Source: Lentisphaerota bacterium (lineage in GTDB: Bacteria; Verrucomicrobiota; Kiritimatiellia; UBA8416; VGWJ01). Taken from it: a stretch of DNA of 64,000 nucleotides. Numbering within the stretch: position 1 is the stretch's first letter; the number at the start of each line of letters is the position of its first letter. The stretch lies in assembly GCA_016873635.1 (NCBI GenBank), contig VGWJ01000001.1, forward strand, positions 1 through 64,000, in the 5' to 3' direction. The notes beneath the pieces are model-generated. The model saw only the letters and a program-made list of their open reading frames with translations. It did not search any database and was not told the origin of the DNA. Positions 488 to 53,364 of this stretch are shown here, piece by piece. The position numbers and the translations under genes were made by a program.

Positions 488-1200
488 GGGCGCTGTCCCG
501 CATCGCCAAGCCCGACACGCTGGCCGGCAGAGCGCTCTACCGGATTCTGCGGTGGCTTCATCCCGGGATCAACGAGCAGCACCGTCTGAGCCGGCTTGCG
601 GGGCGGGCCGGCTACTGGGCGGACATGCAGGTGTATGTATTCGGGTTCCTCACCAGGATGGGACTGCGGCCGTGGCACACGCTCCTGGATATCGGCTGCG
701 GTCCGCTGTCGGGCGGCCTGCCGCTGATACGTTACCTGGAGCCGGGCCGCTACGTGGGCGTGGATCTGCTCGAGGATACGGTGGCCGAAGCGCGGCGGCA
801 GATCGCGAAGCACGGCCTGGAGAACCGCCGTCCGGAGGTCCACGTCTCGCGCACGTTCGGCAGGGACGAACTGGACGGCCGGGTCTTCGACTTCATCTGG
901 GCTTCGCAGGTGATGTACCACCTTGTTCCGGACGACCTGCGCGCGCTGCTGGCGCAGGTCGCGGCGCGTCTCGCGCCCGGCGGCCGCTTCTACGGCGACA
1001 TTCTCGATCAATCCGTTTCCACGGCGGGACGTTATTGGAGGGGGTTTGCGTTTCACGTTCACGACCCGGAGGCGATTGCCGCCGCGGCCGCCGGCCTCGG
1101 CCTGGCCATGCGCAGGCTGGGCCGCGTCGAGGAATTCGGCTTTCCGCTGCCGGGGAGGCTGCGTCTGAGCAGCATGCTGGAGCTGTGCCGGGACGCGTGA
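484..1200 (+). CDS. Class I SAM-dependent methyltransferase
   Basis: 238 aa. A Rossmann-fold methyltransferase: motif I LLDIGCGPLSGG lies around residue 75, and the acidic end of strand 2 is VGVDLLE. Later FDFIWASQVMYHL and LAPGGRFYGD match the post-motif segments of the Methyltransf_11/25 families. The GTG start has GGGAGG seven bases upstream and overlaps the preceding 49-codon ORF by four bases. The N-terminal 40 residues are basic and precede the fold. The substrate cannot be inferred; there is no biosynthetic gene cluster around it. Confidence 0.8.
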   Translation: MRALSRIAKPDTLAGRALYRILRWLHPGINEQHRLSRLAGRAGYWADMQVYVFGFLTRMGLRPWHTLLDIGCGPLSGGLPLIRYLEPGRYVGVDLLEDTVAEARRQIAKHGLENRRPEVHVSRTFGRDELDGRVFDFIWASQVMYHLVPDDLRALLAQVAARLAPGGRFYGDILDQSVSTAGRYWRGFAFHVHDPEAIAAAAAGLGLAMRRLGRVEEFGFPLPGRLRLSSMLELCRDA

Positions 1201-1339
1201 CAGCGGCCTGGCCCGGCTTATTCGTGAACCTTCGTCGCGAGAGCGCGCAGGTTGCGTCAGATCAAGTGCCTGGCGCCGGCCCGTGCGATTTGCCTGCGCG
1301 AAGCCCGCGAAGAAAAAAGACAAGAAAGCCGTTAACTAT

Positions 1340-1367
1340 TTGACAGACCCCTGATGCGCCCTACAGT
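1340..1367 (+). promoter_or_regulatory. Putative sigma70-type promoter of the hydrogenase operon
   Basis: A perfect -35 box TTGACA (1340-1345) and a -10 like TACAGT (1362-1367) are separated by 16 bases. They lie about 40 bases upstream of the first gene of the hydrogenase operon, in the only AT-richer patch between that gene and the methyltransferase. All 17 downstream genes are tightly packed, so this is the likely operon promoter. Confidence 0.6.
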
Positions 1368-1408
1368 GTAAAAGATCAGGCCACACGGAGCCGCAGTCGG
1401 GAGGCGCT

Positions 1409-2437
1409 GTGCTGAAGCTTGACAAGGGGCGTCTCGGGGACTTTCTGCAGACGCTGTGCCGCGGCCGCGCCGTGTACGCGCTCGAGCAGGACGGCGACCA
1501 ATATCACCTTGTCCGCGCTGAAGCCTGGGATCCCGAACGCCACGTGCTCGGCGCCTACCGGCCGGTCGAACCGCTCAAGAGCCTGGTTTTCCCGCCGCGC
1601 GAGCGCGTGGGCGCGCCGGCCGCGCTGGCCGAGGCGGAAGGCGCGGCCGAGAGCATCGTCGTCGGCGCGAAGAACTGCGACGTCTCCGCGCTGCGCATCC
1701 ACGACTTCGTCCTGCGGGAGACCGCGCCGGCGGATCCCTACTACGCGCTGGCGCGCGAGAAGACCCTCATCGTTTCCTGCGACTGCACCGATGCCCGTGA
1801 GGTCTGCTTCTGTCCGGCGGTGGGCGAGCAGCCCTATGTTAAGGAAGGCAGCGACATCAACCTCGCGGCGACGCCGGAGGGCATCCTGGTGGAGGCGCTC
1901 AGCCGGCGCGGCGCGGATCTGCTGCGGCGCGCGGCGCCGGGCCTGCCGCCGGCGGACGAGGCCCTCGCGGCCGCGCGCGACGCCCAGCGCGCGCGCGTCG
2001 GCGAACTGGTCCGCGAACGGGCGGCATCCAGGGGCCTGAAGCGCGACGCCGATCTGCGCAAGGCGGTGCGCGGGACCGAGGAGCACGGCCTGTGGGACGA
2101 ATTCGCGGAGGACTGCGTGGAGTGCGGGGCCTGCAACCTGGCGTGTTGCACGTGCCACTGCTTCCTGCTGGCCGACGGCAGGGACGCGGACGGGCGGCCG
2201 GCGCGGCTGCGGCAGTGGGATTCGTGCCTGTACCTCAACTTCGCGCGCGTGGCCGGCGGGGCCAACCCGCGCCGGCGCCGCGCGGCGCGCCTGTACAACC
2301 GCTTCGACAAGAAATTCAATTTCTTTCCCGAGGTGCTCGGCAGGTACGCCTGCGACGGATGCGGGCGCTGCGCGGAAGCCTGCACGGGCCGGATCGATAT
2401 CCGCGATGTTCTGAAGAGGGCGCTGGATGCAGCCTGA
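1409..2437 (+). CDS. Hydrogenase-associated iron-sulfur subunit (HydB/AsrA-like, beta subunit)
   Basis: 342 aa. Resembles the beta subunit of archaeal-type sulfhydrogenases and anaerobic sulfite reductase subunit A, which pass electrons between a flavoprotein and the catalytic subunits. The C-terminal third carries two ferredoxin-type motifs, CVECGACNLACCTC and CDGCGRCAEAC, consistent with a Fer4_22 dicluster domain. A further Cys-rich segment, CDCTDAREVCFC, lies mid-protein. GTG start with GGGAGG upstream. It overlaps the next gene (the gamma-like flavoprotein) by 11 bases, as expected for a beta-gamma pair. First gene of the operon. Confidence 0.8.
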   Translation: MLKLDKGRLGDFLQTLCRGRAVYALEQDGDQYHLVRAEAWDPERHVLGAYRPVEPLKSLVFPPRERVGAPAALAEAEGAAESIVVGAKNCDVSALRIHDFVLRETAPADPYYALAREKTLIVSCDCTDAREVCFCPAVGEQPYVKEGSDINLAATPEGILVEALSRRGADLLRRAAPGLPPADEALAAARDAQRARVGELVRERAASRGLKRDADLRKAVRGTEEHGLWDEFAEDCVECGACNLACCTCHCFLLADGRDADGRPARLRQWDSCLYLNFARVAGGANPRRRRAARLYNRFDKKFNFFPEVLGRYACDGCGRCAEACTGRIDIRDVLKRALDAA

Positions 2438-3254
2438 TCCCTATGCGCCGATGCCGGCGGCGATCGTGGACGTCTTCGCCGAAACGCCCAACATCAAGAC
2501 GTTCCGCCTGCGACCGGAGGCGCCCGTGCCTTTCCGGGCGGGACAGTTCGTCGAGCTCAGCGTGCCGGGCCTGGGCGAAGCGCCGTTCACGCCGTCGTCC
2601 GCGCCGTCGGTCGCGGACACCATGGAGATCACCATCATGCGCGTGGGCCTGGTCACGGAGCGCCTGCACGCGCTGAAGCCGGGCGCCGTGGTGGGCGTCC
2701 GCGGCCCGCTGGGGAAGCCCTATCCGCTGGAGGCCATGCGCGGCAGGGAAGTGCTGGTGGTGGGCGGCGGCGTGGGCCTGGCCCCCCTGCGGGCGCTGCT
2801 GTTCGCCCTGTTCGAAGACGTGACCGCCTACAGGAAGATCATCCTGCGCTACGGCGCGCGCACCCCGTCGGACCTGGTCTACCGCGGGGCCCTGGACGAC
2901 CTGTGGGGCATGGCGGACGCCGTCGACGCAATGCTCACCGTGGACAGGCGCGACGACGGGTGGACGGGCCACGAGGGCGTCGTGACCACGATTCTCGAGC
3001 CCGGGCGGCTGACGTGCGACGCGCGGAACGGCGTGGCCGTGGTCTGCGGCCCGCCCATCATGATGAAGTTCACCACCGTCAAACTGCTGGATCTGGGCTA
3101 TGCCCCGGATCGCATCTATCTTTCCATGGAGAAGAACATGAGCTGCGGCATCGGCAAGTGCGGGCACTGCCGGCTGGGGGCGTACTACGCCTGTCAGGAC
3201 GGCCCGGTGTTCACCTTCGACAAGGTGCAGGGCCTGTCGAGGATATGGGACTAG
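2427..3254 (+). CDS. FAD/NAD(P)-binding oxidoreductase (HydG/AsrB-like, gamma subunit)
   Basis: 275 aa. Ferredoxin-reductase fold: FAD-binding barrel with RAGQFVELSVPG and a PFTPSS segment, then a nucleotide-binding domain with VVGGGVGLAPLR. The C-terminus has a [2Fe-2S] motif of the dihydroorotate dehydrogenase electron-transfer type, SCGIGKCGHCRLG followed by YACQDGPVF. In sulfhydrogenases this subunit oxidises or reduces NAD(P)H. With the preceding iron-sulfur protein it forms a diaphorase module placed upstream of a membrane hydrogenase rather than a soluble one. NAD versus NADP preference cannot be read safely. Confidence 0.85.
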   Translation: MQPDPYAPMPAAIVDVFAETPNIKTFRLRPEAPVPFRAGQFVELSVPGLGEAPFTPSSAPSVADTMEITIMRVGLVTERLHALKPGAVVGVRGPLGKPYPLEAMRGREVLVVGGGVGLAPLRALLFALFEDVTAYRKIILRYGARTPSDLVYRGALDDLWGMADAVDAMLTVDRRDDGWTGHEGVVTTILEPGRLTCDARNGVAVVCGPPIMMKFTTVKLLDLGYAPDRIYLSMEKNMSCGIGKCGHCRLGAYYACQDGPVFTFDKVQGLSRIWD

Positions 3255-3366
3255 GACGGAGGTTTCGGGTGTCGGGTTTCGGGTTTCAGGGAGGCGGGAG
3301 AGCGCCAGGCGCGCGTCCGTTGCCTTGCTCCCTGACACCTGACGCCCGGCGCCCGGCTGGAAGGGC

Positions 3367-3849
3367 ATGAAGCGACTGCTCATAGACCTCTACAAGTGCG
3401 ACGCCTGCGAGGAGTGCGCGGTGAAATGCGACTATTTCTACCGCCAGGCCGCGACCGACCACGGCGTGCTCGGGCTGCGCGAACGCGCCACCTTCCTCAC
3501 GGTCTGCCGGCGCTGCGAGGACCCGGCCTGCGTGGCGGCATGCAAGTTCGAGGCCCTGGAGCGCCAGCCGGACGACGCGCTCAAGCGCCACAACCTGCGC
3601 TGCGTGAGCTGCAAGTGCTGCAGCCATGCCTGCCCCTTCGGCACGATCTACCCCGAAACCGTGCCGTTCCACGCGATGAACTGCGATTTCTGCGTCAACT
3701 CCGCGGGAGAGGCGCCGCCCTGCACGCTTTCGTGCGCGAAGGACGCCCTCGCGTACCGCGAGATAAGCGACCCCGAGAAGGAAGGCGTCGTGCTGATCGG
3801 CGACAACCTGGCCGTGCGCGCGCCGGTGTGGGACAAGAAGAAGGTCTAG
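3367..3849 (+). CDS. Polyferredoxin electron-transfer subunit (four [4Fe-4S] motifs)
   Basis: 160 aa with sixteen cysteines in four groups: CDACEECAVKC, CRRCEDPACVAAC, CVSCKCCSHAC and CDFCVNS...CTLSC. This is the HydN/CooF/DmsB type of electron carrier, able to hold four [4Fe-4S] clusters. About 110 bases separate it from the flavoprotein gene, the widest gap in the operon. It is followed at once by the NuoH-like membrane subunit. Likely role: wiring the diaphorase, or soluble ferredoxin, to the hydrogenase core. Confidence 0.85.
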   Translation: MKRLLIDLYKCDACEECAVKCDYFYRQAATDHGVLGLRERATFLTVCRRCEDPACVAACKFEALERQPDDALKRHNLRCVSCKCCSHACPFGTIYPETVPFHAMNCDFCVNSAGEAPPCTLSCAKDALAYREISDPEKEGVVLIGDNLAVRAPVWDKKKV

Positions 3850-3851
3850 CC

Positions 3852-4778
3852 ATGGAAATGCTGCCGCTCACGCTGCAGGTGCTGGTGTTTCCCGGCCTGC
3901 TCTTCGCCGCCGCGGCGGGGCTGGTGACCAGCTGGGTGGACCGCATGGTGACCGCGCGCGTGCAGATGCGCGTGGGGCCGCCCTTCCTGCAGCCGTTCTA
4001 CGACGTGGTGAAGCTGATGATCAAGGAGACCTGCGTCCCGGCAGGCGGCGCGCGCGCCCTGTTCCTGGCCGCTCCGCTGGCGGGTCTTGCCGGCGCGGCG
4101 CTGGCCTCCACGATCATCTGGCGCGCCTTCCTCGCGCGGGGTTCCGGTTTCAGCGGCGACGTGATCGTGCTGCTGTACCTGCTCACGCTGCCCGCGCTGG
4201 CCGTGATCCTCGGATCGTTCGCCTCGCGCAACCCGCTGGCCTCGCTGGGCGGGAGCCGCGAGATGAAGCTGCTCCTGGCCTACGAGCTGCCGTTCGTGCT
4301 GGCGGTGCTGGCGGTGGTGGCGCGCACGGGCGCGCTGCGCCTCGAGGAAATCCTGGCGGCGCCGGCCGCGGCCACGCGGCCCTCGGGGATCATCGCCCTG
4401 GTCGTGGCCGTGCTGTGCATGCAGGCCAAGCTGACGCTCGTGCCGTTCGACGCGCCCGAAGCCGAGACCGAGCTCAGCGGCGGCGCCTACATCGAGTATT
4501 CGGGGCCGCCGCTGGCCGTCTTCAAGCTCACGCGGGCCATGATGCTGTTCACCATGCCGGTCTTCCTGGTGGCCGTGTTCGGAGGCGGCATCCGGCTGGG
4601 CGACGGCGTGCTGCCCGCCGTGGCGGGCGTGCTCAAGGTGGTCGGGCTGGTCGTGGCGACGATCCTGATCCGCAACACGGCGCCGCGGGTGCGCATCGAC
4701 CAGGCCGTGCGGTTCTTCTGGGGGCCCGCGACCCTGGCGGCGCTGGTCGCCACGGGCCTGGTGTTTGTGGGACTGTGA
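3852..4778 (+). CDS. NuoH/EchB/MbhM-like membrane subunit
   Basis: 308 aa. Complex I subunit 1 family, the membrane anchor linking hydrogenase and ion-pumping arms. The conserved loop RMVTARVQMRVGPPFLQPFYDVVKL and the acidic segment DAPEAETELSGGAYIEYSG are typical of the family. About eight hydrophobic helices. The ATG at 3852 sits two bases after the stop of the ferredoxin gene. The ORF track shows a longer open frame, but its upstream part is a shadow of the ferredoxin gene. Confidence 0.9.
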   Translation: MEMLPLTLQVLVFPGLLFAAAAGLVTSWVDRMVTARVQMRVGPPFLQPFYDVVKLMIKETCVPAGGARALFLAAPLAGLAGAALASTIIWRAFLARGSGFSGDVIVLLYLLTLPALAVILGSFASRNPLASLGGSREMKLLLAYELPFVLAVLAVVARTGALRLEEILAAPAAATRPSGIIALVVAVLCMQAKLTLVPFDAPEAETELSGGAYIEYSGPPLAVFKLTRAMMLFTMPVFLVAVFGGGIRLGDGVLPAVAGVLKVVGLVVATILIRNTAPRVRIDQAVRFFWGPATLAALVATGLVFVGL

Positions 4779-4780
4779 AC

Positions 4781-5203
4781 ATGAGCTTTGCGGTCAGAGC
4801 GCTGACAAGGTCGCTGAACGTGTTCCACCTCGGCGGCAGCGCGTGCAACAACTGCGACATAGAGATTTTGGACGCGCTGACGCCGCGCTACGACGTGGAG
4901 CGCTTCGGACTGACGCTCGTCGGCAGCGTCCGGCACGCGGACCTGATTCTCCTGTCGGGGGTCTTCAACACGAAGGCGGCGATTCGCGCCAGGCGGATCT
5001 ACGAGCAGGCGCCGAAGCCGGTGGTCGTCGTGGCCATCGGCGCCTGCGCCTGCACGGGCGACATTTTCCGGAAGTCGTACAACTGGGACGGGCCGGTCGA
5101 CCGCTACATACCGGTGGACGCCTACGTGGCGGGCTGTCCGCCCAAGCCGGAAGCCATGCTCGAGGCCGTGGTGACGCTGGTGAAGAAATTGAGGGGCGCA
5201 TGA
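4781..5203 (+). CDS. Group 4 [NiFe]-hydrogenase small subunit (NuoB/EchC/MbhJ-like)
   Basis: 140 aa, the short form typical of energy-converting hydrogenases, which bind only the proximal [4Fe-4S] cluster. The four expected ligands are visible: ACNNC (Cys22 and Cys25), GACAC around residue 88 and AGCPPKPEAM near residue 118. It transfers electrons to the nickel-iron site of the large subunit. The start lies two bases after the NuoH-like stop and the stop overlaps the next start (ATGA). Confidence 0.92.
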   Translation: MSFAVRALTRSLNVFHLGGSACNNCDIEILDALTPRYDVERFGLTLVGSVRHADLILLSGVFNTKAAIRARRIYEQAPKPVVVVAIGACACTGDIFRKSYNWDGPVDRYIPVDAYVAGCPPKPEAMLEAVVTLVKKLRGA

Positions 5204-5652
5204 CCAGGGACGACATACTGGCGCGGATCAAGGCCGAACTGGGCGACCGCGTGGTCGATTTCCACGCGAAATCGGACAGGCGGTATTACGTCGAGGTCGG
5301 TCCGGACGACGTCCCCGGCGCCACCCGGCTCATCTTCGAAGAGCTGGGCGCGCGGTTTCAGATCGCGACGGGCATCGACACGCCGCGGGCCATCGAGATT
5401 CTCTATCACTGGGCGTTCGACCGGTTCGGCTTCGTGCTGACGCTGCGCACGAAGCTCGACCGCGAGAAGCCCGAGGTTGACTCGGTCGCCGGGATCTGCA
5501 CCGGGACCGAGTGGATCGAGCGCGAGATGTGGGAGCTGCTGGGCGTGAAGTTCCGCGGTCATCCCGACATGCGGCACCTGCTGCTCAGGGATGACTGGCC
5601 GGCGGGGAAGTTCCCGCTGCGCAGGGATTACGTGAGGGCAGACCATGCCTAG
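5200..5652 (+). CDS. NuoC/EchD/MbhK-like subunit
   Basis: 150 aa. Complex I 30-kDa subunit family. The conserved region includes EREMWELLGVKFRGHPDMRHLLL followed by the LRRDYV tail. It stabilises the large/small subunit interface in complex I and group 4 hydrogenases. It overlaps the small-subunit gene by four bases and the large-subunit gene by eight. Confidence 0.9.
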   Translation: MTRDDILARIKAELGDRVVDFHAKSDRRYYVEVGPDDVPGATRLIFEELGARFQIATGIDTPRAIEILYHWAFDRFGFVLTLRTKLDREKPEVDSVAGICTGTEWIEREMWELLGVKFRGHPDMRHLLLRDDWPAGKFPLRRDYVRADHA

Positions 5653-6871
5653 GACCGCCATAATCCCCATCGGCCCTTATCATCCGCTGCAGGAGGAGCC
5701 GGAATTCTTCAAGCTGCACGTGGAGGGCGAGACGGTGGTCGGGCTGGACATCGAGCTGGGGTACAACCACCGCGGCATCGAGAAGCTCTCCGAGTCCAAG
5801 ACCTTCGAGCAGACGGTGTTTCTCGTGGAGCGCATCTGCGGCATCTGCTCCACGTCGCACCCCATCGCCTGCGTGCAGGCCATCGAGGACGCGGGCAACA
5901 TCGCTGTCCCGGAGCGGGCGCTGTACATCCGCTCCCTGATCGGGGAGCTCGAGCGGCTGCACTCGCACCTGCTGTGGCTGGGGCTGGCGGGCCATTTTCT
6001 CGGTTTCAACACGGTCTGGATGTGGGTCTGGCGCTATCGCGAGGACCTGCTGGACATCATGGAGCTGCTCACCGGCAACCGGAACCACTATGCCATGATG
6101 AAGCCGGGCGGCGTGCGCCGCGACATCCGCCGCGAGGACATCCCGGCCGTGCGCAAGATGCTCGACGGTCTCAAGGGGCCGCTGGCCCTGTTCCGCGACG
6201 CGGTGGCGGAAGACCCGGTCATTCACGCCCGGCTCAAGGACGTGGGCGTGCTCACGCGGCAGGAGGTGATCGACTACTGCGCGCTGGGGCCCACGGCGCG
6301 CGCTTCGGGCGTGGCGATCGACGTCCGGCGGGACCATCCGCACGCGGCCTACGGCCTGGTGGAATGGGACGTGTGCGTCGAGCACAACGGGGACGTGTTC
6401 GACAAGGCGGTGGTCCGCATCCGCGAAATGTTCGAGTCGGTCCGCATCGTGGCGCAGTGCCTGGACCGCCTGGAGGTCGTGGGCGGCCCGATCGACTCGA
6501 ACCCGAAGGAGATTCCGCCGGGGGAGGGGATCGGCCACTACGAGGCGCCGCGCGGCGAGGTGTTCCACTACGTGCGCAGCGACGGCGGCAACCGGCCGGC
6601 GCGCCACAAGGTGCGGGCGCCGAGCTACATGAACGTGCCCACGGACCGCGCCGCGGTGCTGGGAGGCTCGGTGTCCGACGCCACGATCGTGCTGGCGGCG
6701 GTCGACCCCTGCTACTGCTGCACGGAGCGCATGGCGGCGCTGGACGCGTCCACGGGCCGCCGGCTGATGGGCGCGAAGGAGCTGCTGCGGCTTTCGTGGG
6801 AAAAGACGGAACGTCTGAAGCGGGAACTGGGGGCGGAAGGTCCGAAGCTGGACCTCGCCCGGACGGAATGA
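5645..6871 (+). CDS. Group 4 [NiFe]-hydrogenase large catalytic subunit (NuoD/EchE/MbhL-like)
   Basis: 408 aa. Both nickel-binding motifs are intact: RICGICSTSH (Cys65, Cys68) and DPCYCCTER (Cys356, Cys359). This separates it from complex I NuoD and from Mbx/Mbs-type paralogues, which have lost cysteines. About 46 residues follow the second motif, starting at Met363, so maturation probably requires cleavage after Arg362; a HycI-like protease is encoded at the end of the operon. The reaction is reversible proton reduction to H2. Confidence 0.93.
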   Translation: MPRTAIIPIGPYHPLQEEPEFFKLHVEGETVVGLDIELGYNHRGIEKLSESKTFEQTVFLVERICGICSTSHPIACVQAIEDAGNIAVPERALYIRSLIGELERLHSHLLWLGLAGHFLGFNTVWMWVWRYREDLLDIMELLTGNRNHYAMMKPGGVRRDIRREDIPAVRKMLDGLKGPLALFRDAVAEDPVIHARLKDVGVLTRQEVIDYCALGPTARASGVAIDVRRDHPHAAYGLVEWDVCVEHNGDVFDKAVVRIREMFESVRIVAQCLDRLEVVGGPIDSNPKEIPPGEGIGHYEAPRGEVFHYVRSDGGNRPARHKVRAPSYMNVPTDRAAVLGGSVSDATIVLAAVDPCYCCTERMAALDASTGRRLMGAKELLRLSWEKTERLKRELGAEGPKLDLARTE

Positions 6872-6875
6872 GAAC

Positions 6876-8717
6876 ATGAACGGGCTCGGCGACATCCTGC
6901 GGCATCCGGTGGGGCTGACGATCGGGGTGCCGCTGCTGACGGGGCTGATCGGCCGCCTGCTGCCGCGCGCCTGGCGGCGGGAGCAGGGCATCGTGGCCGT
7001 GGCGGGCACGGCGGTCGCGGCCATGCTGGCCTGGCGCGTGTTCGCGGCCGGCGGCCTGATGCCTGGCGCGGGGCCCTGGCTGGTCGTGGACGGCCTGAGC
7101 CGCTTCGTGCTGGCGGCCGTGGCGACCTTCGGTTTCCTGATCGCGCTGTTCTCGCTGGGGCACGCGGCCGTGCCGCCGGTCGCCCGCGAGTACTACGCGT
7201 ACCTGGCGTGGACCGTGGGCATCGCGTGCGGGGCGGTGCTGGCCAACGACCTGATCCTCCTGCTCGTCTTGTGGGGCCTGCTGGGGCTGACGCTTTACGT
7301 GATGATCGGCCTGTCGGGCCCCGACGCCTCGGCGGCGGCCAAGAAGAGCTTCGTGATCGTCGGCGGGTCCGACTGCCTGCTCATGCTGGGCATCGTCATC
7401 GTCTGGCTGCTGACCGGCAGCACGCGCATGAACGGGCCCGTTCTGCCCTTCACGGGCGGCCTGACCTACGCGGCGTTCCTGTGCTTCGCCGCGGCGGCGC
7501 TCGCCAAGGCCGGGGCGGTGCCGGTGCATTCGTGGGTGCCGGACTGCGGCGAGAAGGCGCTGGCGCCGGTGACCGCGTTCCTCCCGGCCTCGCTGGACAA
7601 GCTGCTGGGCATCTACCTGCTGGCGCGCGTGACGCGCGGCATGTTCGCGCCGGACGCATGCATGAACCTGGTGCTGATGGCCGTCGGGGCGGTGACCGTG
7701 GTGGCGGCGGTGATGATGGCGCTGGTGCAGCACGATCTGAAGCGGCTGCTTTCCTACCACGCCGTAAGCCAGGTGGGGTACATGGTGCTGGGCATCGGCG
7801 CGGGCACGCCGCTGGGCCTGGCCGGCGGGCTTTTCCACATGCTCAATAACGCGGTTTACAAGTCGGCCCTGTTCCTTTGCGCGGGCGCGGTGGAGGAAAA
7901 GGCCGGCACGACCGATCTCGACCGGCTGGGCGGACTGGCGCGGGCCATGCCGGCGACCTTCGCCACCTGCCTGACCGCGTCGCTGGCCATCTCGGGCATT
8001 CCGCCCCTGAACGGGTTCTTCTCGAAGTGGATGGTCTACCAGGGGATCGTGCAGTCGGCCGGCGCGGCGGGACCCGTCTGGGTGGTGTGGCTGGCGGCGG
8101 CCATGATCGGTTCGGCGCTGACCCTGGCCAGCTTCGCCAAGGTGCTGCACGCGGTGTTCCTGTGCAAGCCGGCCGCGGGGACGGACTTGAGGGAGGCGCG
8201 GGAAGTGAACTGGGCCATGCGCGCGCCCATGCTCGCGCTGGCGGCCGTGTGCGTGCTGTTCGGCGTGCTGGCCGTGCCGCTGCCGTTGCGGACGATGATC
8301 CTGCCGGCGGCCGGCGGGGACACGCCCATGATCGGCGTCTGGTGGTCCGGCACGGCCACGGCCATGATGGCCGCGGCGTTTGTCTTCGGCCTGCTGCTCT
8401 ACGCCGTTTCGCGCGCGGGCCGGGCGCGGGAGTGCGCGACATACGTCGGGGGCGAGATTGTGGGAGCAAGCGCGGCGCCCGCGGCAAGCGTGGAGGTGAC
8501 CGGCGTCGATTTCTACCGCACGATCGAGGAGATGCAGCCGCTGCAGAGCATCTACGCCGCGGCCGGGAAGAAGCTTTTCGACCTGTACGACGTGGGCACG
8601 AGCGTGCTGTTCTATTTCGTGGAAGCGCTGCGCAAGGCGCACGGCGGCGTGCTGCCCGTCTACCTGACCTGGGTGCTGGCGGGCCTGCTCATACTGGTGT
8701 GGCGGCTGGCGCAATGA
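6876..8717 (+). CDS. Antiporter-like membrane subunit (NuoL/MrpA N-terminal module)
   Basis: 613 aa, about 15 hydrophobic helices. Proton_antipo_M family: the LAKAGAVPVHSWVPD segment holds the conserved Lys, with further conserved residues in QHDLKRLLSYHAVSQVGYM and SGIPPLNGFFSKW. The C-terminal extension, containing FYRTIEEMQPL and a final helix, resembles NuoL-like tails in hydrogenase complexes. With the next gene (DUF4040 plus MbhE-like) it equals a split MrpA. It is one of two antiporter-type subunits in this operon. Likely role: H+ or Na+ translocation. Confidence 0.88.
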   Translation: MNGLGDILRHPVGLTIGVPLLTGLIGRLLPRAWRREQGIVAVAGTAVAAMLAWRVFAAGGLMPGAGPWLVVDGLSRFVLAAVATFGFLIALFSLGHAAVPPVAREYYAYLAWTVGIACGAVLANDLILLLVLWGLLGLTLYVMIGLSGPDASAAAKKSFVIVGGSDCLLMLGIVIVWLLTGSTRMNGPVLPFTGGLTYAAFLCFAAAALAKAGAVPVHSWVPDCGEKALAPVTAFLPASLDKLLGIYLLARVTRGMFAPDACMNLVLMAVGAVTVVAAVMMALVQHDLKRLLSYHAVSQVGYMVLGIGAGTPLGLAGGLFHMLNNAVYKSALFLCAGAVEEKAGTTDLDRLGGLARAMPATFATCLTASLAISGIPPLNGFFSKWMVYQGIVQSAGAAGPVWVVWLAAAMIGSALTLASFAKVLHAVFLCKPAAGTDLREAREVNWAMRAPMLALAAVCVLFGVLAVPLPLRTMILPAAGGDTPMIGVWWSGTATAMMAAAFVFGLLLYAVSRAGRARECATYVGGEIVGASAAPAASVEVTGVDFYRTIEEMQPLQSIYAAAGKKLFDLYDVGTSVLFYFVEALRKAHGGVLPVYLTWVLAGLLILVWRLAQ

Positions 8718-8727
8718 AAGAAGGGCC

Positions 8728-9300
8728 ATGACGATACTGGCGGCACTGCTGTTCCTGATGCTCGTGGGCGCGATCATCGCCGTCGAAACCACGAACCTGC
8801 TCTCGGCGGTCATCAGCGTGGGCGCGGTGGGCTTCCTGCTGTCCATCGCCTTCCTCTTCCTGGGCGCGCCGGACATCGCCATCACCCAGCTCGTGGTCGA
8901 AATCCTGTGCCTGGTCATCCTGATCCGCGCCACGATCAGCCGCGACCTTACGGCGGTCAGCGGCGAGCGCGAGTTCTTCGGCATGGTGGTCGGCGTGGCG
9001 CTGGTTGTGCTCGTGGCGCTGGCGGGCATCGCGGCGTTCGAGCAGTTCCCGCCCTTCGGCGAGCCGGTGATGGCGCGTTTCCCGGACGACGCGCCCTCGG
9101 CGACCTATCTCGCGGAAGGCCTGGACCGCACCGGGGCGGCCAACATCGTCACGGCGGTGATCCTCGATTTCCGGGCGTACGACACGCTGGGTGAGGCCAC
9201 GGTGCTCTTCTGCGCGATCCTCGGCGCCCTGGCCCTCATGCGCCGCCGGGCCCGGCGGCAGCGCGACGGAGACGAGACGGAGGAGGGCGACGCCGCATGA
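8728..9300 (+). CDS. DUF4040/MbhD plus MbhE-like membrane protein (MrpA C-terminal part)
   Basis: 190 aa. The first 75 residues form hydrophobic helices with GAPDIAITQLVVEILCLVILI, the signature of DUF4040 (MbhD or the MrpA C-terminus). A second part, from about residue 85, matches the MbhE-type segment, including the periplasmic TGAANIVTAVILDFRAYDTLGE. In Mrp antiporters both regions are fused to MrpA; here they are a separate gene directly after the NuoL-like subunit. It ends in an ATGA overlap with the MrpB-like gene. Confidence 0.85.
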   Translation: MTILAALLFLMLVGAIIAVETTNLLSAVISVGAVGFLLSIAFLFLGAPDIAITQLVVEILCLVILIRATISRDLTAVSGEREFFGMVVGVALVVLVALAGIAAFEQFPPFGEPVMARFPDDAPSATYLAEGLDRTGAANIVTAVILDFRAYDTLGEATVLFCAILGALALMRRRARRQRDGDETEEGDAA

Positions 9301-9794
9301 ACGATCCGCACGCGAAAGAGGGCATGAGCCTGATCGTCAAGACGGTCACCCGCTGGCTCAAGGGCTTCCTGCTGCTCTACGGCGCGTACATCGTGCTCTA
9401 CGGGCACCTGACGCCGGGCGGCGGTTTCGCGGGCGGCGTCATCGTGGCCTGCGCCTTCATCCTGGTGTTTCTCGCCTGCGGCGCGGGCATCGGCCACCGC
9501 ACCCTCGGCCGCCTGGCCGCCTCGGAGCTGGACAGCGCGGGGGCGCTGATCTTCACGGCCGTGGGCGCGCTGGGCATCGCGCTGGGCGGCGTGTTCTTCC
9601 GCAACTTCATCCGCACGCCGCCCGAGGCGCATTTCCGCCTGCTCAGCAGCGGCGTGATCCCGGTCTGCAACATCGCCATCGGTCTGAAGGTCGGCACGAG
9701 CCTCTTCATGGTGCTGGCCATACTGTCGGCCGTGCACGTGGCCGTGAAGGGCGGCCGGCGTCGCATGGTGCGGCGGCGGGAGGACAAGTCATGA
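9297..9794 (+). CDS. MrpB/MnhB-like subunit
   Basis: 165 aa, four predicted helices. The MnhB domain is recognised from YGAYIVLYGHLTPGGGFAGGVI, the most conserved part of the family, and a later GLKVGTSLFMVLA. Part of the Mrp-type antiporter module, placed between the MrpA C-terminal part and MrpC as in canonical mrp operons. The basic C-terminus overlaps the next start. Confidence 0.88.
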   Translation: MNDPHAKEGMSLIVKTVTRWLKGFLLLYGAYIVLYGHLTPGGGFAGGVIVACAFILVFLACGAGIGHRTLGRLAASELDSAGALIFTAVGALGIALGGVFFRNFIRTPPEAHFRLLSSGVIPVCNIAIGLKVGTSLFMVLAILSAVHVAVKGGRRRMVRRREDKS

Positions 9795-10138
9795 TCTACG
9801 CCCTGTGCCTGATGCTGATCGCCGTGGGGCTCTACGGCGTGGTGGTCAAGAAGAACGTCGTCAAGATCGTGATCAGCCTGGCCATCATGGAGTACGGCAT
9901 CAACCTGCTGCTGATTCTGGTGGGCTACCGCGCCGGCGGGCACGCGCCGATCATGGAGCCCGGCGCGTCCCCGGCGGAGTTCGCGGCGGGGGCGGTGGAT
10001 CCGCTGCCGCAGGCGCTGGTGCTGACCTCGATCGTGATCGGGCTGGGGGTGCTGGCGATGATGGTGGCCATCTGCATCCGGCTGTACGAGCGCTACGGCA
10101 CTTTCGACATCACCGAGATGAGACGGCTGCGCGGGTAA
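9791..10138 (+). CDS. MrpC/NuoK-like subunit
   Basis: 115 aa, three predicted transmembrane helices. NuoK/MnhC family: KKNVVKIVISLAIMEYGINLLLI contains the membrane glutamate (MEYGIN) typical of the family, and DPLPQALVLTSIVIGLG is the usual second signature. It overlaps MrpB by four bases and is five bases from the MrpD-like gene. Confidence 0.9.
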   Translation: MIYALCLMLIAVGLYGVVVKKNVVKIVISLAIMEYGINLLLILVGYRAGGHAPIMEPGASPAEFAAGAVDPLPQALVLTSIVIGLGVLAMMVAICIRLYERYGTFDITEMRRLRG

Positions 10139-10143
10139 AGCAC

Positions 10144-11619
10144 ATGGACAACCTGACGCCCATGTTCGTGGTGATTCCGCTGGCGGCGGGATTCGTCATC
10201 CCCATGGTGTCGCGCCGCTTGCGGGCGGCGTCGGACGTGTTCGGGGTGCTGGTCATGAGCGCCCTGGCGGTCATGGCGGCGGCCGGCGCGCGGCGCGGCG
10301 GGGTGTACGCCGTGGGCGACTGGGTCTCGCCCCAGGGCATCCCGCTGGGGATCGAGATGCGGCTGGACGGCCTGGCGGCGCTGCTGCTGATCGCCGTGAA
10401 CGCGATCGGGCTGGCGGCGGTCGTGTTCTCGGTGGACTACATGCGCCGCTACACCTCCAAGCTGCGCTACTACAGCCTGTTCATGTTCATGGTGGCGGGC
10501 ATGAACGGCGTGGTGCTGTCGGGCGACTTCTTCAACCTCTTCGTCTTCATGGAGATCGCGGCCATTGCGTCGTACGCGCTGGTGGGCTTCGGGTGCGGGC
10601 ACGAGGAGCTGGAGGCGTCGTTCAAGTACCTCGTGCTGGGCAGCGTGGCCTCGGCCTTCATCCTGATCGGGGTGGCGATCGTGTACAACATGACCGGCAC
10701 GTTGAACATGGCCCACGTCGCGACGCGTCTGGCGGGGCAGCCCCTGGGCCGGCCCATGGTCCTGGCGCTGGCGCTGTTCCTGTGCGGGTTCGGACTCAAG
10801 GCGGCGCTGGTTCCCTTCCATGCCTGGCTCCCCGACGCGCATCCCTCGGCGCCGGCGCCCGTGTCGGCCATGCTTTCCGGAGTGGTGATCAAGGCGCTGG
10901 GCATCTACGTCATGGCGCGGCTGCTGTTCAACGTGTTCGGCGCCGGCGCGGCCGCGCTGGCCGTCCTGCGCGGCATGGGCGCGCTCTCCATGGTGGCGGG
11001 GGTGATGCTGGCCATCGGACAATGGGACATGAAACGGCTCTTCGCCTATCACAGCATCAGCCAGATCGGCTACGTGGCCCTGGCCCTGGGCCTGGGCACG
11101 CCGCTGGGCATCGCGGGCGGCCTGTTCCACATGCTCAACCATTCCATCTTCAAGTCCCTGCTGTTCCTCACCGCCGGCGCCGTGGAATACGCCACGGGCA
11201 CGCGCGATCTCAAGCGCCTCGGGGGCCTGCGCGCGCGCATGCCGGTCACGGCGGGAACGTCGTTCGTGGCTTCCATGTCCATCGCCGGCATTCCGCCCTT
11301 CAACGGGTTCTGGAGCAAGCTGATCATCGTGCTGGCCTGCGTGCAGGCCGGGCGTCACGGGCTGGCCCTGGCCGCCGTGGCGGTGAGCCTGCTTACGCTG
11401 GCTTCTTTCCTGAAGGTGCAGCGCTACGCGTTCTTCGAGGCGGCCAAGGGGGGGACGGAACACGTCAGGGAGGCGCCGCCGCTGATGGCGCTGGCCATGG
11501 TGCTGCTGGCGCTGCTGTGCGCGGGGACGTCTCTGCTGGCGCTGACGGGGATCGCGTCGCCGGCGTTGATCGACCGGGCGGCGCAGGCCTTGCAGGCGGG
11601 AGTGTTCGGATTGCCGTGA
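10144..11619 (+). CDS. MrpD/MbhH-like antiporter subunit
   Basis: 491 aa, about 14 helices. Proton_antipo_M domain with FNLFVFMEIAAIASYAL, LKAALVPFHAWLPDAHPSAP (conserved Lys), GQWDMKRLFAYHSISQIGY and IAGIPPFNGFWSKL. This is the second antiporter-type subunit of the complex, and its gene is embedded between mrpC- and mrpE-like genes as in Mrp. The complex thus has two candidate ion-translocating channels plus any path in the NuoH-like subunit. Confidence 0.9.
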   Translation: MDNLTPMFVVIPLAAGFVIPMVSRRLRAASDVFGVLVMSALAVMAAAGARRGGVYAVGDWVSPQGIPLGIEMRLDGLAALLLIAVNAIGLAAVVFSVDYMRRYTSKLRYYSLFMFMVAGMNGVVLSGDFFNLFVFMEIAAIASYALVGFGCGHEELEASFKYLVLGSVASAFILIGVAIVYNMTGTLNMAHVATRLAGQPLGRPMVLALALFLCGFGLKAALVPFHAWLPDAHPSAPAPVSAMLSGVVIKALGIYVMARLLFNVFGAGAAALAVLRGMGALSMVAGVMLAIGQWDMKRLFAYHSISQIGYVALALGLGTPLGIAGGLFHMLNHSIFKSLLFLTAGAVEYATGTRDLKRLGGLRARMPVTAGTSFVASMSIAGIPPFNGFWSKLIIVLACVQAGRHGLALAAVAVSLLTLASFLKVQRYAFFEAAKGGTEHVREAPPLMALAMVLLALLCAGTSLLALTGIASPALIDRAAQALQAGVFGLP

Positions 11620-11629
11620 GGACACGGAC

Positions 11630-12142
11630 ATGATGCGACGGCTGGCTCTGTTCCTGCTGTGTTTCGCGGTCTGGATCGTGCTGGTCTGGCCTCCGCGGGA
11701 CGAGACCGGCGCCCTGCGCCTGGCGGACCTGTCCGCCGGCGCCCTGGCCGCCCTGCTGGCGGCCGCGGTCATGCGCGAGTTCACCTTCGAGAAGACCCGC
11801 GGCCTGCTGGACCCGCGCCGCTACCTGTGGCTGGCGGCGTACGGCGTGGTGCTGCTGTTCTACATCGTGAAAGCCAATTTTGACGTGGCCTACCGCGTGC
11901 TGCACCCCGCGATGCCGATCCGCCCCGGGATCGTCAAGGTGCGCACGTCGCTGCGCTCCGCGTCGGCCATCACGGCCCTGGCCAATTCCATAACGCTCAC
12001 GCCGGGCACGCTGACCGTGGAGGCCACGGCCGACGGCTGGCTGTACGTGCACTGGATCCATGTGACGACGACCGATCCGGAGGAGGCGGCGCGGCACATC
12101 GTGTCGCGCTTCGAGTGGTTCATCAGTCGCATTTTCGCGTAG
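11630..12142 (+). CDS. MrpE/MnhE-like subunit
   Basis: 170 aa. MnhE family: two or three N-terminal helices, then AYGVVLLFYIVKANFDVAYRVLHP and the soluble C-terminal region TALANSITLTPGTLTVEA, followed by LYVHWIHV. This is the characteristic order of the family. It lies between the MrpD- and MrpF-like genes with short spacers. Confidence 0.9.
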   Translation: MMRRLALFLLCFAVWIVLVWPPRDETGALRLADLSAGALAALLAAAVMREFTFEKTRGLLDPRRYLWLAAYGVVLLFYIVKANFDVAYRVLHPAMPIRPGIVKVRTSLRSASAITALANSITLTPGTLTVEATADGWLYVHWIHVTTTDPEEAARHIVSRFEWFISRIFA

Positions 12143-12157
12143 CCGCGGGAGGACAAG

Positions 12158-12427
12158 GTGCCGGAAACGATCTACAACCTGGCGTGCGGGGCGCTGCTGG
12201 TCTGCTGCGGCATGTGCCTGTACCGCATCGGCCTCGGGCCGACCGCGCCCGACCGGGCCGTGGCCATCGACATCCTCGGGATCGTGGTGGTCTGCTTTAC
12301 CGCCCTGCTCTCGCTGCGGACCGGCTTGAGCTACTACCTCAATATCGGCATCGCCTGGGCGATCCTCAGCTTCGTGGGCACCATCGCCCTGGCCAAGCAC
12401 CTGGAAGGTAAGGGCTTCGATGAGTGA
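12158..12427 (+). CDS. MrpF/MnhF-like subunit
   Basis: 89 aa with three helices. The family motif RIGLGPTAPDRAVAIDIL is clear. GTG start preceded by GGGAGGA. The stop lies eight bases inside the MrpG-like gene, so translation is probably coupled. Confidence 0.88.
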   Translation: MPETIYNLACGALLVCCGMCLYRIGLGPTAPDRAVAIDILGIVVVCFTALLSLRTGLSYYLNIGIAWAILSFVGTIALAKHLEGKGFDE

Positions 12428-12779
12428 TACGATCGGCGCGGTCATGCTCGCGGTCGGCATCCTGTTCAACCTGGCCGGCTGCCTGGGAATGGTGCGGCTG
12501 CCCGACGTCTACAACCGCCTGCAGGCGGCGACGAAGTGCGTCACGCTCGGCACCTGCCTGGTGCTGGGCGCGGTGGCGGTGCTGACGGCCGGCCAGTCGG
12601 CGGCCATCGCCCTGCGCGGCGCGCTGTGCATCGTGTTCATCGTGATCACCTCGCCCACGGCGGCGCACGCCCTGGCGCGCGGCGCGCACGCTTCGGGCGT
12701 GAAGCTGTGGGAAGGCAGCGTGGCCGACGCCTATGCCGCCGACGGCGAGCCGGGCGCGGCGCGCGAGGAAACGGAATGA
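12420..12779 (+). CDS. MrpG/MnhG-like subunit
   Basis: 119 aa, three helices. PhaG/MnhG family motif LAGCLGMVRLPDVYNRLQAATKC is followed by SPTAAHALARGAHASG. Last membrane gene of the Mrp-type block. Its stop overlaps the start of the ferredoxin gene (ATGA). Confidence 0.9.
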   Translation: MSDTIGAVMLAVGILFNLAGCLGMVRLPDVYNRLQAATKCVTLGTCLVLGAVAVLTAGQSAAIALRGALCIVFIVITSPTAAHALARGAHASGVKLWEGSVADAYAADGEPGAAREETE

Positions 12780-13387
12780 AGATTCCCTGCCTGCTGCAAC
12801 TGCGCATCCTGAAACTGGCGTTCAAGTCGCTTTTCTCGCGGCCCTACACGACGCGTTTTCCCGCCGAGCCCTACGAGGCGCAGAAGAGCTTCCGCGGCCG
12901 GCCGCGCTTCAGCGAGGCGGACTGCATCGGCTGCGGGGCCTGCGCGGAAGTGTGCCCCGCGGAGTGCATCGACGTGGCGGACGAAGCCGCGGCCGACCCG
13001 CCCGTGCGGCGCTTCGTGCAGCACATGGACGCCTGCATCGCCTGCGGCCAGTGCGAGCGCTACTGCACGACCGAAAAGGGCATCCGGCTGACCAACGAGT
13101 ACGCGTTCATCGGCTTCAAGCCCGCGGACTTCGAGGAGAAGGCGGCCAAACCCCTGCTGCTGTGCGAGGGATGCGGCGGCGCGATCGCGCCGCTGGACCA
13201 GATCCGCTGGCTGGCGCGCCGGCTCGGCCCCCTGGCTTTCGCCAATCCCACCGTGATGCTGGTGGCGCACGACCGTCTGGAAGTCGTGGGCGAAGGGGTA
13301 ACCCCCGGCGCGGAGACGGCGCAGCGCGCGCGGCGCATCAGCATTCTTTGCCCCAGGTGCCGCCGCGCCGCCGCCCTGGCGGTGTGA
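12776..13387 (+). CDS. Ferredoxin subunit of the hydrogenase complex (NuoI/MbhN/HycF-like)
   Basis: 203 aa. Two [4Fe-4S] motifs, CIGCGACAEVCP (near residue 44) and CIACGQCERYC (near residue 84), match the NuoI/HycF type. A C-terminal CEGCGG...CPRCRR pair looks like the rubredoxin-like zinc site seen in HycF/HyfH. A basic, hydrophobic N-terminus could sit against the membrane. Probably carries electrons from ferredoxin or the diaphorase to the small subunit. Confidence 0.88.
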   Translation: MKIPCLLQLRILKLAFKSLFSRPYTTRFPAEPYEAQKSFRGRPRFSEADCIGCGACAEVCPAECIDVADEAAADPPVRRFVQHMDACIACGQCERYCTTEKGIRLTNEYAFIGFKPADFEEKAAKPLLLCEGCGGAIAPLDQIRWLARRLGPLAFANPTVMLVAHDRLEVVGEGVTPGAETAQRARRISILCPRCRRAAALAV

Positions 13388-13396
13388 GGATGCGGA

Positions 13397-13882
13397 ATGC
13401 CCGACGCCGCGCACGCTCTGGCCGCTTCCCTGGCGCCCCTGCTGACGGGACGCGTGTGCGTCGTCGGCGTGGGCAACCGCCTGGCCGGCGACGATGCGGC
13501 CGGGCCGGCGGTGATCGACGCGCTGCGCGGGAGCGCCGCGGCCGACTGCCTGGACGCCGGCGACGCGCCGGAGAACTTCCTGGGGAAAATCCTGGCCCTG
13601 GCGCCGGACACGCTCCTGATCGTGGACGCCGTCTGCATGGGCGGGGCGCCGGGCGAAGTGCGCGTGCTCGATCCCGACCGGCTGGACGGCGCCGGCATCT
13701 CCACGCACGCGCTGTCGCTGGACGTGGCCTGCCGCTACCTGCGCGCGCGCCGCGAAATGCGCATCCGGATCGTGGGCATCCAGCCGGCCGCGGCCGATCA
13801 GGGGGCCCCGCTGAGCGAAGCGGCGCGCGCCGCGGTGCGGCTGGTCGCCGACGCGCTCCGCGCGGTTCCGCCGCGAAGCTGA
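13397..13882 (+). CDS. Hydrogenase maturation protease (HycI/peptidase M52-like)
   Basis: 161 aa. The opening signature VVGVGNRLAGDDAAG, IVDAV with the metal-binding Asp, and STHALSL with the His ligand are the three conserved sites of nickel-dependent hydrogenase proteases. Expected to remove the C-terminal tail of the large subunit after nickel insertion. Last gene of the operon. The hypA-F maturation genes are not in this window, so they must lie elsewhere if the enzyme is active. Confidence 0.88.
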   Translation: MPDAAHALAASLAPLLTGRVCVVGVGNRLAGDDAAGPAVIDALRGSAAADCLDAGDAPENFLGKILALAPDTLLIVDAVCMGGAPGEVRVLDPDRLDGAGISTHALSLDVACRYLRARREMRIRIVGIQPAAADQGAPLSEAARAAVRLVADALRAVPPRS

Positions 13883-53170: not shown

Positions 53171-53364
53171 AGGGAAAAATACCCTGCCTTGTTCGTTAAT
53201 AGGCTGAAATCTCTGACCCAGTAATCACATACAGGGGAGCTCGAACGCCGCGCGGCCCGAAGGCCCCTTCGGGGGGACTCGGAAAGCGTGGGATAGAGCA
53301 CCCACCTCGTTCGCGAGGTTCAGAGATGATGGCCTCTACGGCAGATGGCGGGGTATTTTTCCCT
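53171..53364 (+). ncRNA. ssrS: 6S RNA-like structured RNA
   Basis: About 194 nt. AGGGAAAAATACCCTGCC pairs with GGCGGGGTATTTTTCCCT, a nearly perfect 18-base closing stem. Inside, ATCTCTGA pairs with TCAGAGAT, then comes a long internal region with an apical hairpin (CCCGAAGG/CCTTCGGG) and small hairpins on the 3' side (GTGGG/CCCAC and ACCTCG-TTCG-CGAGGT). Length, layout and the 5' pattern TTGTTCG...GGC...CTGACCC resemble bacterial 6S RNA. The context also fits: rarA and 5-formyl-THF cyclo-ligase follow, the latter being the classic ssrS neighbour in E. coli. Confidence 0.68.

Follow-up and report, generated by a model that had tools for sequence, protein, structure and literature searches.

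A Kiritimatiellae operon that combines a HydB/HydG-type diaphorase, a group 4 [NiFe]-hydrogenase and a complete Mrp antiporter

Gene content and cofactor ligands of the operon

We analyzed the first 64 kb of contig C1 (the window) of a metagenome-assembled genome (MAG) from the Kiritimatiellae (3.24 Mb in 145 contigs, 92% complete), which harbors at positions 1409-13882 an operon for a HydB/HydG-type diaphorase, a group 4 [NiFe]-hydrogenase and an Mrp antiporter. The analysis of open reading frames (ORFs) in the window revealed 17 intact genes, all on the + strand as originally predicted from the DNA, and a profile search with the window proteins returned family matches for all 17 (Table 1). 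The genes had been described as mostly overlapping, which is slightly overstated: overlaps were observed at 7 of the 16 junctions, another 8 are spaced by 2 to 15 bp, and 112 bp separate the HydG-like from the CooF-like gene. This gap (3255-3366) contains short GGGTTTC-type direct repeats; the equivalent junction in the relative L034 measures about 14 bp. The Mrp antiporter is complete, with MrpA encoded by two genes and MrpB to MrpG all present, and the two antiporter-type subunits of the original prediction are the N-terminal part of MrpA and MrpD.

The catalytic core has the composition of a group 4 enzyme, namely, a NuoD-like large subunit with both CxxC pairs and NuoH-, NuoB-, NuoC- and NuoI-like partners. 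Both Cys pairs had been noted previously, and they are present in the motifs RICGIC and DPCYCC. The NiFe ligands (R63, C65, C68, H72 and D354-P355-C356-x-x-C359) were invariant in all 81 large subunits compared (window and relatives), 80 of which share the DPCYCCTER signature, and the four Cys ligands of the proximal cluster in the NuoB-like subunit were kept in 77 of 77 sequences. A tail of 30 to 55 residues follows the last CxxC motif of the large subunit, the operon encodes a HycI-type protease, and alignment with Escherichia coli HycE showed that R-M also follows the last motif there. HycI would cleave the window protein after Arg362. Since the ligands are invariant and both tail and protease are present, as with E. 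coli HycE, these sequences argue that the NiFe site is active and matured, and not a relic of the Ehr/Mbx type.

The HydB- and HydG-like proteins are homologous along their length to the beta and gamma subunits of Pyrococcus furiosus sulfhydrogenase I (SHI; 9NEZ). The former has the ligand pattern for three [4Fe-4S] clusters (C90, C126, C133, C135; C236, C239, C242, C246, C249, C251, C273; C315, C318, C321, C325), kept in 55 of 55 sequences, and the [2Fe-2S] ligands of the latter (C240, C245, C248, C256) were kept in 60 of 60. The third gene, whose nature was absent from the original prediction, encodes a four-cluster ferredoxin of the HycB/CooF type; the last twelve of its 16 Cys were kept in 64 to 68 of 68 relatives and the four of the first cluster in 51 to 67 of 67. 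The NuoI-like subunit combines two 4Fe-4S motifs with a C-terminal CxxC...CPxC quartet (C130 and C133 in 55/55, C192 and C195 in 54/54). In E. coli formate hydrogenlyase (FHL), a HycF extension bearing the same kind of quartet touches HycB (PMC9474812). Because of this contact, and because HycB is among the PDB matches of the CooF-like protein, HydG-HydB-CooF by analogy most likely docks at the position that FdhF-HycB occupies in FHL.

Table 1. Features of the operon and Rex operators of related loci. Positions refer to the window, or to the related locus named before the colon; aa, amino acids.
Feature	Position	Strand	Evidence
Promoter-like element TTGACA-16-TACAGT (1340-1367) with overlapping weak Rex-like palindrome CCGTTAACTATTTGACAG (10/14)	1328..1367	+	Motif scans
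HydB/AsrA-like iron-sulfur subunit, 342 aa	1409..2437	+	Fer4_22 8e-25; NCBIfam ShyB/HydB/AsrA; PDB 9NEZ_B 3.5e-47
HydG/AsrB-like FAD/NAD(P)-binding subunit, [2Fe-2S] site, 275 aa	2427..3254	+	FAD/NAD-binding and DHODB Fe-S; PRK08345, AsrB, ShyC, HydG models; PDB 9NEZ_C 7e-56
CooF/HycB-like polyferredoxin, 16 Cys for four [4Fe-4S], 160 aa	3367..3849	+	Fer4_11; HycB of FHL 7Z0S_B among PDB matches
NuoH/MbhM/HycD-like membrane anchor	3852..4778	+	NADHdh 8e-62
NuoB/MbhJ-like hydrogenase small subunit, proximal cluster C-N-N-C, C, C	4781..5203	+	Oxidored_q6
NuoC/MbhK-like subunit	5200..5652	+	Complex1_30kDa
Group 4 [NiFe]-hydrogenase large subunit, RICGIC...H and DPCYCCTER/M (slash, putative cleavage), cleavable-type C-terminal tail	5645..6871	+	49kDa/NiFeSe_Hases; top PDB matches MbhL 6CFW, HycE 7Z0S
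MrpA N-terminal (NuoL-like) antiporter subunit, 613 aa	6876..8717	+	Proton_antipo_M; NuoL/MrpA/HyfB models
MrpA C-terminal part (fused MbhD and MbhE)	8728..9300	+	Pfam MbhD 8e-16, MbhE 1e-10
MrpB	9297..9794	+	MnhB 4e-24
MrpC	9791..10138	+	Oxidored_q2
MrpD antiporter subunit	10144..11619	+	Proton_antipo_M 1e-64
MrpE	11630..12142	+	MNHE 2e-40
MrpF	12158..12427	+	MrpF_PhaF
MrpG	12420..12779	+	PhaG_MnhG_YufB
NuoI/HycF-like ferredoxin subunit, two [4Fe-4S] and HycF-type C-terminal Cys quartet	12776..13387	+	Fer4; HycF model
HycI-type hydrogenase maturation protease	13397..13882	+	PF01750; TIGR00072 above cut-off; TIGR00142
Rex operators upstream of hydB/asrA	L063:5863, L064:5649, L065:5864, L066:5841, L069:3631, L075:5829, L076:5777, L078:4619, L084:154, L085:5812, L089:5928, L091:5771, L092:212, L094:843, L096:5812, L101:5649, L108:5104, L062:1212

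Conservation of the operon among its relatives

With four close sequences as query, we found 264 relatives among 84,980 species genomes and read the best 80. Among the named relatives with this operon, the large subunits closest to the window protein were those of a Kiritimatiellae MAG (L045, 81% identity) and a Verrucomicrobia MAG (L044, 79%). Kinship with such carriers of the operon places the host in the Kiritimatiellae; a 16S locus (L006) was also found. The 17-gene order is identical in four Kiritimatiellae, the window included, except that no HycI match was found in the stretch read of L035. As three further Kiritimatiellae share this order and dozens of loci from other phyla repeat it, the arrangement lies far beyond chance; the conserved order, together with the family matches of all 17 genes, rules out chance or mis-annotation as the source of the operon.

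AsrA, AsrB and CooF precede the hydrogenase core in 50 of 52 testable loci, and L062, one of the two exceptions, still has asrA and asrB farther upstream. All Mrp subunits and NuoI lie downstream of the core in 45 of 50 testable loci; in L098 and L100, which account for two of the five exceptions, only the MrpA match was missing under the coordinate rule used. The Spirochaetota loci L086, L106 and L118 lack the Mrp genes, so that NuoI comes next after NuoD, and other antiporter-like subunits stand in place of the usual Mrp in L082 and L093. Within the reach of their contigs, all five loci retain the gene for the CooF-like protein together with AsrA, AsrB or both. These variants are nested in the clade described below, so the antiporter was lost or swapped while the diaphorase was kept, which indicates that the diaphorase belongs to the hydrogenase. 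Apparent NuoD-MrpA fusions in L069 and L099 were read-through artefacts, with a stop codon between the genes.

The comparison of evolutionary distances in 37 loci points in the same direction. Correlations with the large subunit reached 0.83 for AsrA, 0.85 for AsrB and 0.88 for CooF, which match those of the core subunits NuoH (0.81), NuoB (0.85), NuoC (0.83) and NuoI (0.87), whereas MrpA (0.76) and MrpD (0.64) of the membrane arm were lower. HydG-HydB-CooF therefore seems to evolve as part of the hydrogenase, to which the Mrp arm is more loosely tied. Taken together, gene order, co-retention and distance correlation lend good support, at the level of sequence, to the earlier proposal that diaphorase, hydrogenase and Mrp form one complex.

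In a quickly built tree whose reference branches were long, the 81 large subunits formed a single clade (SH-aLRT 99) apart from MbhL and HycE. Members of the clade span more than 10 phyla, and the 18-member subclade of the window mixes Kiritimatiellae, Fibrobacterota, Planctomycetota, Verrucomicrobiota and Pseudomonadota, a pattern compatible with operon transfer; binning errors in MAGs are another possible source. A second, antiporter-rich group 4 type found in the same bacterial class also falls outside the clade. It was observed in L011, L012, L025 and L026, with large subunits 43 to 46% identical, several antiporter-like subunits and no HydBG seen adjoining; in genome G050, it shares a contig with the first type.

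The neighborhoods of the operon vary. A molybdopterin oxidoreductase (FdhA-like) is encoded upstream in the Clostridia-type loci L063 (759-3533), L064 (352-2421) and L065 (561-2630), and in L065 an additional HydB-like gene, MobA, FdhD and Rex come next. An upstream ORF of 670 to 690 amino acids corresponds to this molybdenum (Mo) enzyme in L064 and L065 (925 amino acids in L063); elsewhere, it had no Pfam match (L044, L062) or was RecJ (L047). In L044, group 3b-type genes (HydB, HydG, small and large subunit; 500-4471) immediately precede the group 4 operon.

Rex linkage and genomic context of the host

Rex is a sensor of the NADH/NAD+ ratio that lets go of DNA at high NADH. We scanned all 80 loci (1.224 Mb) for the Rex operator TTGTGAANNNNTTCACAA with a match of at least 13/14 and obtained 22 sites. 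Seventeen are located at most 200 bp upstream of asrA, and that of L062 lies about 40 bp upstream of asrA, giving 18 loci together (Table 1). Only about 0.2 sites would be expected upstream of asrA, since the 200-bp upstream windows make up less than 1% of the bases scanned. Of the remaining four sites, those of L083 and L097 sit immediately in front of a rex gene located upstream of asrA, and those of L094 and L102 are flanked by a rex gene or fragment on one side and a gene for a NuoF-type flavoprotein on the other. A rex gene was found upstream of the operon in 13 loci; in L063 to L065, the repressor gene is just upstream of asrA (PF06971 and PF02629 in L065, by similarity in the others). 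Overall, 27 of about 53 loci are linked to Rex by a near-perfect operator, a rex gene or both, and they occur in both deep halves of the tree. As the operons are often preceded by Rex operators or rex genes, NADH is favored as the electron carrier, and this pattern supports NADH disposal as the probable role of the operon in Rex-linked lineages. NAD(P)H had been named as a donor in the original prediction, a view now strengthened by the HydG/HydB homology with cofactor ligands kept and by the Rex operators and rex genes that accompany operons of relatives.

The region upstream of the window operon is less distinctive. The single promoter-like sequence reported earlier does exist, but one match found against 0.6 expected by chance does not by itself exceed chance. 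A Rex-like element overlaps its -35 box; with a match of 10/14 and p=0.035 against shuffles before multiple-testing correction, it does not qualify as a significant Rex box. A similar element is present in L045 and L051, and the host genome encodes a Rex-type protein.

The host also encodes a group 3b-type soluble hydrogenase (contig C17, L125) whose own HydB and HydG are 31% and 42% identical to the copies of the operon, so the latter are not needed by the group 3b enzyme. An Mvh/Hdr-type group 3c set lies near a molybdopterin oxidoreductase on contig C13 (L124), which is the sole Mo-enzyme match in the genome and is not linked to the operon. Rnf, POR-type oxidoreductases and NuoF-type flavoproteins are also present, and the search of the host genome found no [FeFe]-hydrogenase. 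This repertoire makes it plausible that the host is a fermenter having to balance NADH, NADPH and ferredoxin. Despite the Mrp antiporter in the operon, the F-type ATP synthase c-subunit (G000:C32:21429-21620) lacks a Ser or Thr behind the ion-binding Glu (VEAL), so its ion site looks H+-type; this F-type subunit thus provides no evidence of Na+ coupling. A 6S RNA (SsrS) gene was detected at window positions 53178-53358 (100.7 bits).

Proposed function and relation to known systems

We propose, with a probability of roughly 0.6, that the products of the operon assemble into a single membrane-bound complex, a group 4 [NiFe]-hydrogenase mounted on a full Mrp arm with HydG-HydB-CooF as its NAD(P)H input, acting reversibly and coupled to ions. 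The HydG-HydB-CooF module would take the place of FdhF-HycB in FHL and of NuoEFG in complex I. Electrons from NAD(P)H would enter at the FAD and [2Fe-2S] cluster of HydG, pass through the three [4Fe-4S] clusters of HydB and the four of the CooF-like protein, and leave via the two of the NuoI/HycF-like subunit and the proximal cluster of NuoB for the NiFe site. The predicted reaction, NAD(P)H + H+ <-> NAD(P)+ + H2, would be coupled to ion movement through MrpA/MrpD.

The direction of this coupling was considered by arithmetic from standard potentials, with E'(NADH) of -275 to -320 mV. The transfer of electrons from NADH to H2 yields about -2 to -10 kJ/mol at 1 Pa H2, is close to zero at 10 Pa and costs +7 to +15 kJ/mol at 1 kPa, which 1 to 2 charges moving down the membrane potential would cover. 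If NAD(P)H is the only donor and H2 pressure is ordinary, H2 release would probably consume the ion gradient; ions may be exported when H2 is very low, when ferredoxin supplies additional electrons, or during H2 oxidation. The original prediction had linked H2 formation to Na+/H+ transport. The link is retained here. However, H2 would have to be very scarce for electron transfer from NADH to H2 to gain appreciable driving force, so inflowing ions that push the reaction, or a reaction that runs in reverse, are likelier than ion export.

Several points weigh against our proposal. Ion export driven by NADH alone is implausible, because the reaction is endergonic above about 10 Pa H2. The sequence does not decide between NAD and NADP, and the scan of loci found strong Rex sites neither in the window nor in the rest of its 18-member clade. 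The correlated distances can also result from co-transfer of one operon instead of contact, ferredoxin could enter at CooF or NuoI, and we found no biochemistry on such a complex in the literature.

The presence of HydBG-CooF in nearly every operon, where it outlasts the loss of Mrp, also bears on an Mbh-like alternative, in which reduced ferredoxin would be the sole donor for H2 formation, Na+/H+ would be exported, and HydB-HydG would form a side branch between ferredoxin and NAD(P)+. A classical ferredoxin-only Mbh needs no such module, and the Rex linkage indicates NADH. We consider this alternative unlikely, although ferredoxin is favored by thermodynamics, is made or used by the POR-type enzymes and Rnf of the host, and is the putative partner of HydDB group 4g, to which the Mrp-linked enzyme of the relative Saelkia (L089) has been assigned.

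More doubtful is confurcation, whereby ferredoxin and NAD(P)H would jointly feed H2 formation (or H2 oxidation would reduce both), with Mrp adding ion coupling. The many clusters with two possible entries (the HydG flavin and the ferredoxin-type CooF/NuoI) would suit it, Rex control is compatible with it, and L094 and L102 have a rex gene or fragment with a NuoF-type flavoprotein gene downstream. However, the only flavin-type subunit in the operon is of the HydG kind, for which we know of no bifurcation in characterized sulfhydrogenases, and an ion-coupled enzyme can overcome the barrier without confurcation. That HydB/HydG form a true anaerobic sulfite/sulfur reductase unit (AsrAB) merely co-transcribed with the hydrogenase-Mrp complex is highly improbable: the NCBIfam AsrA and AsrB models do match, and a sulfur-reducing role has been raised for Atribacteria (PMC6469976), but both scores are far under the equivalog cut-offs (105.8 of 323 bits and 192.5 of 289 bits), the operon has no gene for the sirohaem sulfite reductase AsrC that would make up AsrABC, and the correlation with the hydrogenase equals that of core subunits.

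Our proposal of an NAD(P)H-fed, ion-coupled hydrogenase can be extended, tentatively, to the clade as a whole. On a complex I-type ion pump, HydG-HydB-CooF may serve as an NAD(P)H-input module of independent and non-homologous nature. Uncultured anaerobes with operons of this widespread, often Rex-controlled lineage would then use it to force electrons from NADH onto protons at the expense of the ion gradient, and the energy-converting hydrogenases in this part of HydDB group 4g would depend on NAD(P)H instead of ferredoxin. If the complex works as proposed, fermenters of many candidate phyla would gain a direct NADH-to-H2 route powered by an ion gradient, with relevance to H2 transfer in anoxic sediments, and part of group 4g would acquire a testable function.

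The operon is a new member, hosted by Kiritimatiellae, of a known but uncharacterized kind. It is not categorically new, because its architecture has been described and a Saelkia relative has been filed as group 4g. Matheus Carnevali (2019) reported an 'enigmatic' group 4 [NiFe] locus in Saganbacteria RX5A with asrA, asrB, cooF, Mrp and a Mo enzyme, left the donor open, suggested an Mbh-like function, and named Zixibacteria and Omnitrophica as the nearest relatives (PMC6349859). The window operon has all five classes (asrA, asrB, cooF, group 4 and Mrp), and Omnitrophota dominate the clade found here; unlike the RX5A locus, it lacks a molybdopterin oxidoreductase, which the related L063 to L065 possess. 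For Atribacteria, Bird (2019) proposed a membrane-bound hydrogenase with an adjacent oxidoreductase, electrons from ferredoxin or NADH, and flanking Mrp genes (PMC6469976). Prior description of the operon with another donor, named at the outset as a refutation, is thus partly realized by these two reports. The Atribacterota loci L102 and L104 sit in the clade of the window operon. Glass et al. (2021) reportedly gave the name 'Hun' to a supercomplex of the same kind, joining a [NiFe]-hydrogenase to an Na+/H+ antiporter, in Atribacteria, Firmicutes and Thermotogae; the isolate name of L065 (1244-F3-H4-B3) fits Ocean Drilling Program (ODP) Site 1244 of that study. The only hydrogenase identified in Ca. 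Saelkia is Mrp-linked and of group 4g (Williams 2021), a loose HydDB class of 'undetermined role' with putative ferredoxin coupling. The Saelkia MAG locus L089, whose large subunit is 64% identical to that of the window and falls in the same clade, ties the operon indirectly to this class, whereas the module attached here suggests NAD(P)H. What this analysis adds is the link to Rex, the variants without Mrp and a distribution wider than reported; we did not find them in the literature that could be consulted, and they may still have been published.

Among characterized enzymes, the operon resembles P. furiosus Mbh (group 4d) in its top large-subunit PDB match (6CFW_L), Mrp-type arm and NiFe ligands, but Mbh has neither diaphorase nor second antiporter subunit, and the window protein belongs to a separate clade, which rules out 4d. 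The earlier contrast with a single MbhH holds for Mbh and does not extend to the related MBS complex, which has two antiporter-like subunits, MbsH and MbsH' (PMC9474812). Similarity to E. coli FHL (group 4a) is of the same order (HycE 310 bits, MbhL 317 bits) and includes the HycB/HycF-like electron path, HycI-type maturation and R-M after the last CxxC; HydG-HydB stands where FHL has FdhF, and a full Mrp arm where it has HycC alone. The diaphorase is shared with the group 3b enzyme SHI, which is soluble and without membrane arm, whereas large and small subunits of the NuoD/NuoB type, not the HydA/HydD type, exclude group 3b proper. The operon is not complex I either, as it has NiFe ligands and no NuoEFG genes. 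If our proposal is correct, HydG-HydB-CooF would represent a third means, besides formate dehydrogenase and NuoEFG, of connecting an oxidizing module to the hydrogenase core that is regarded as the ancestor of complex I.

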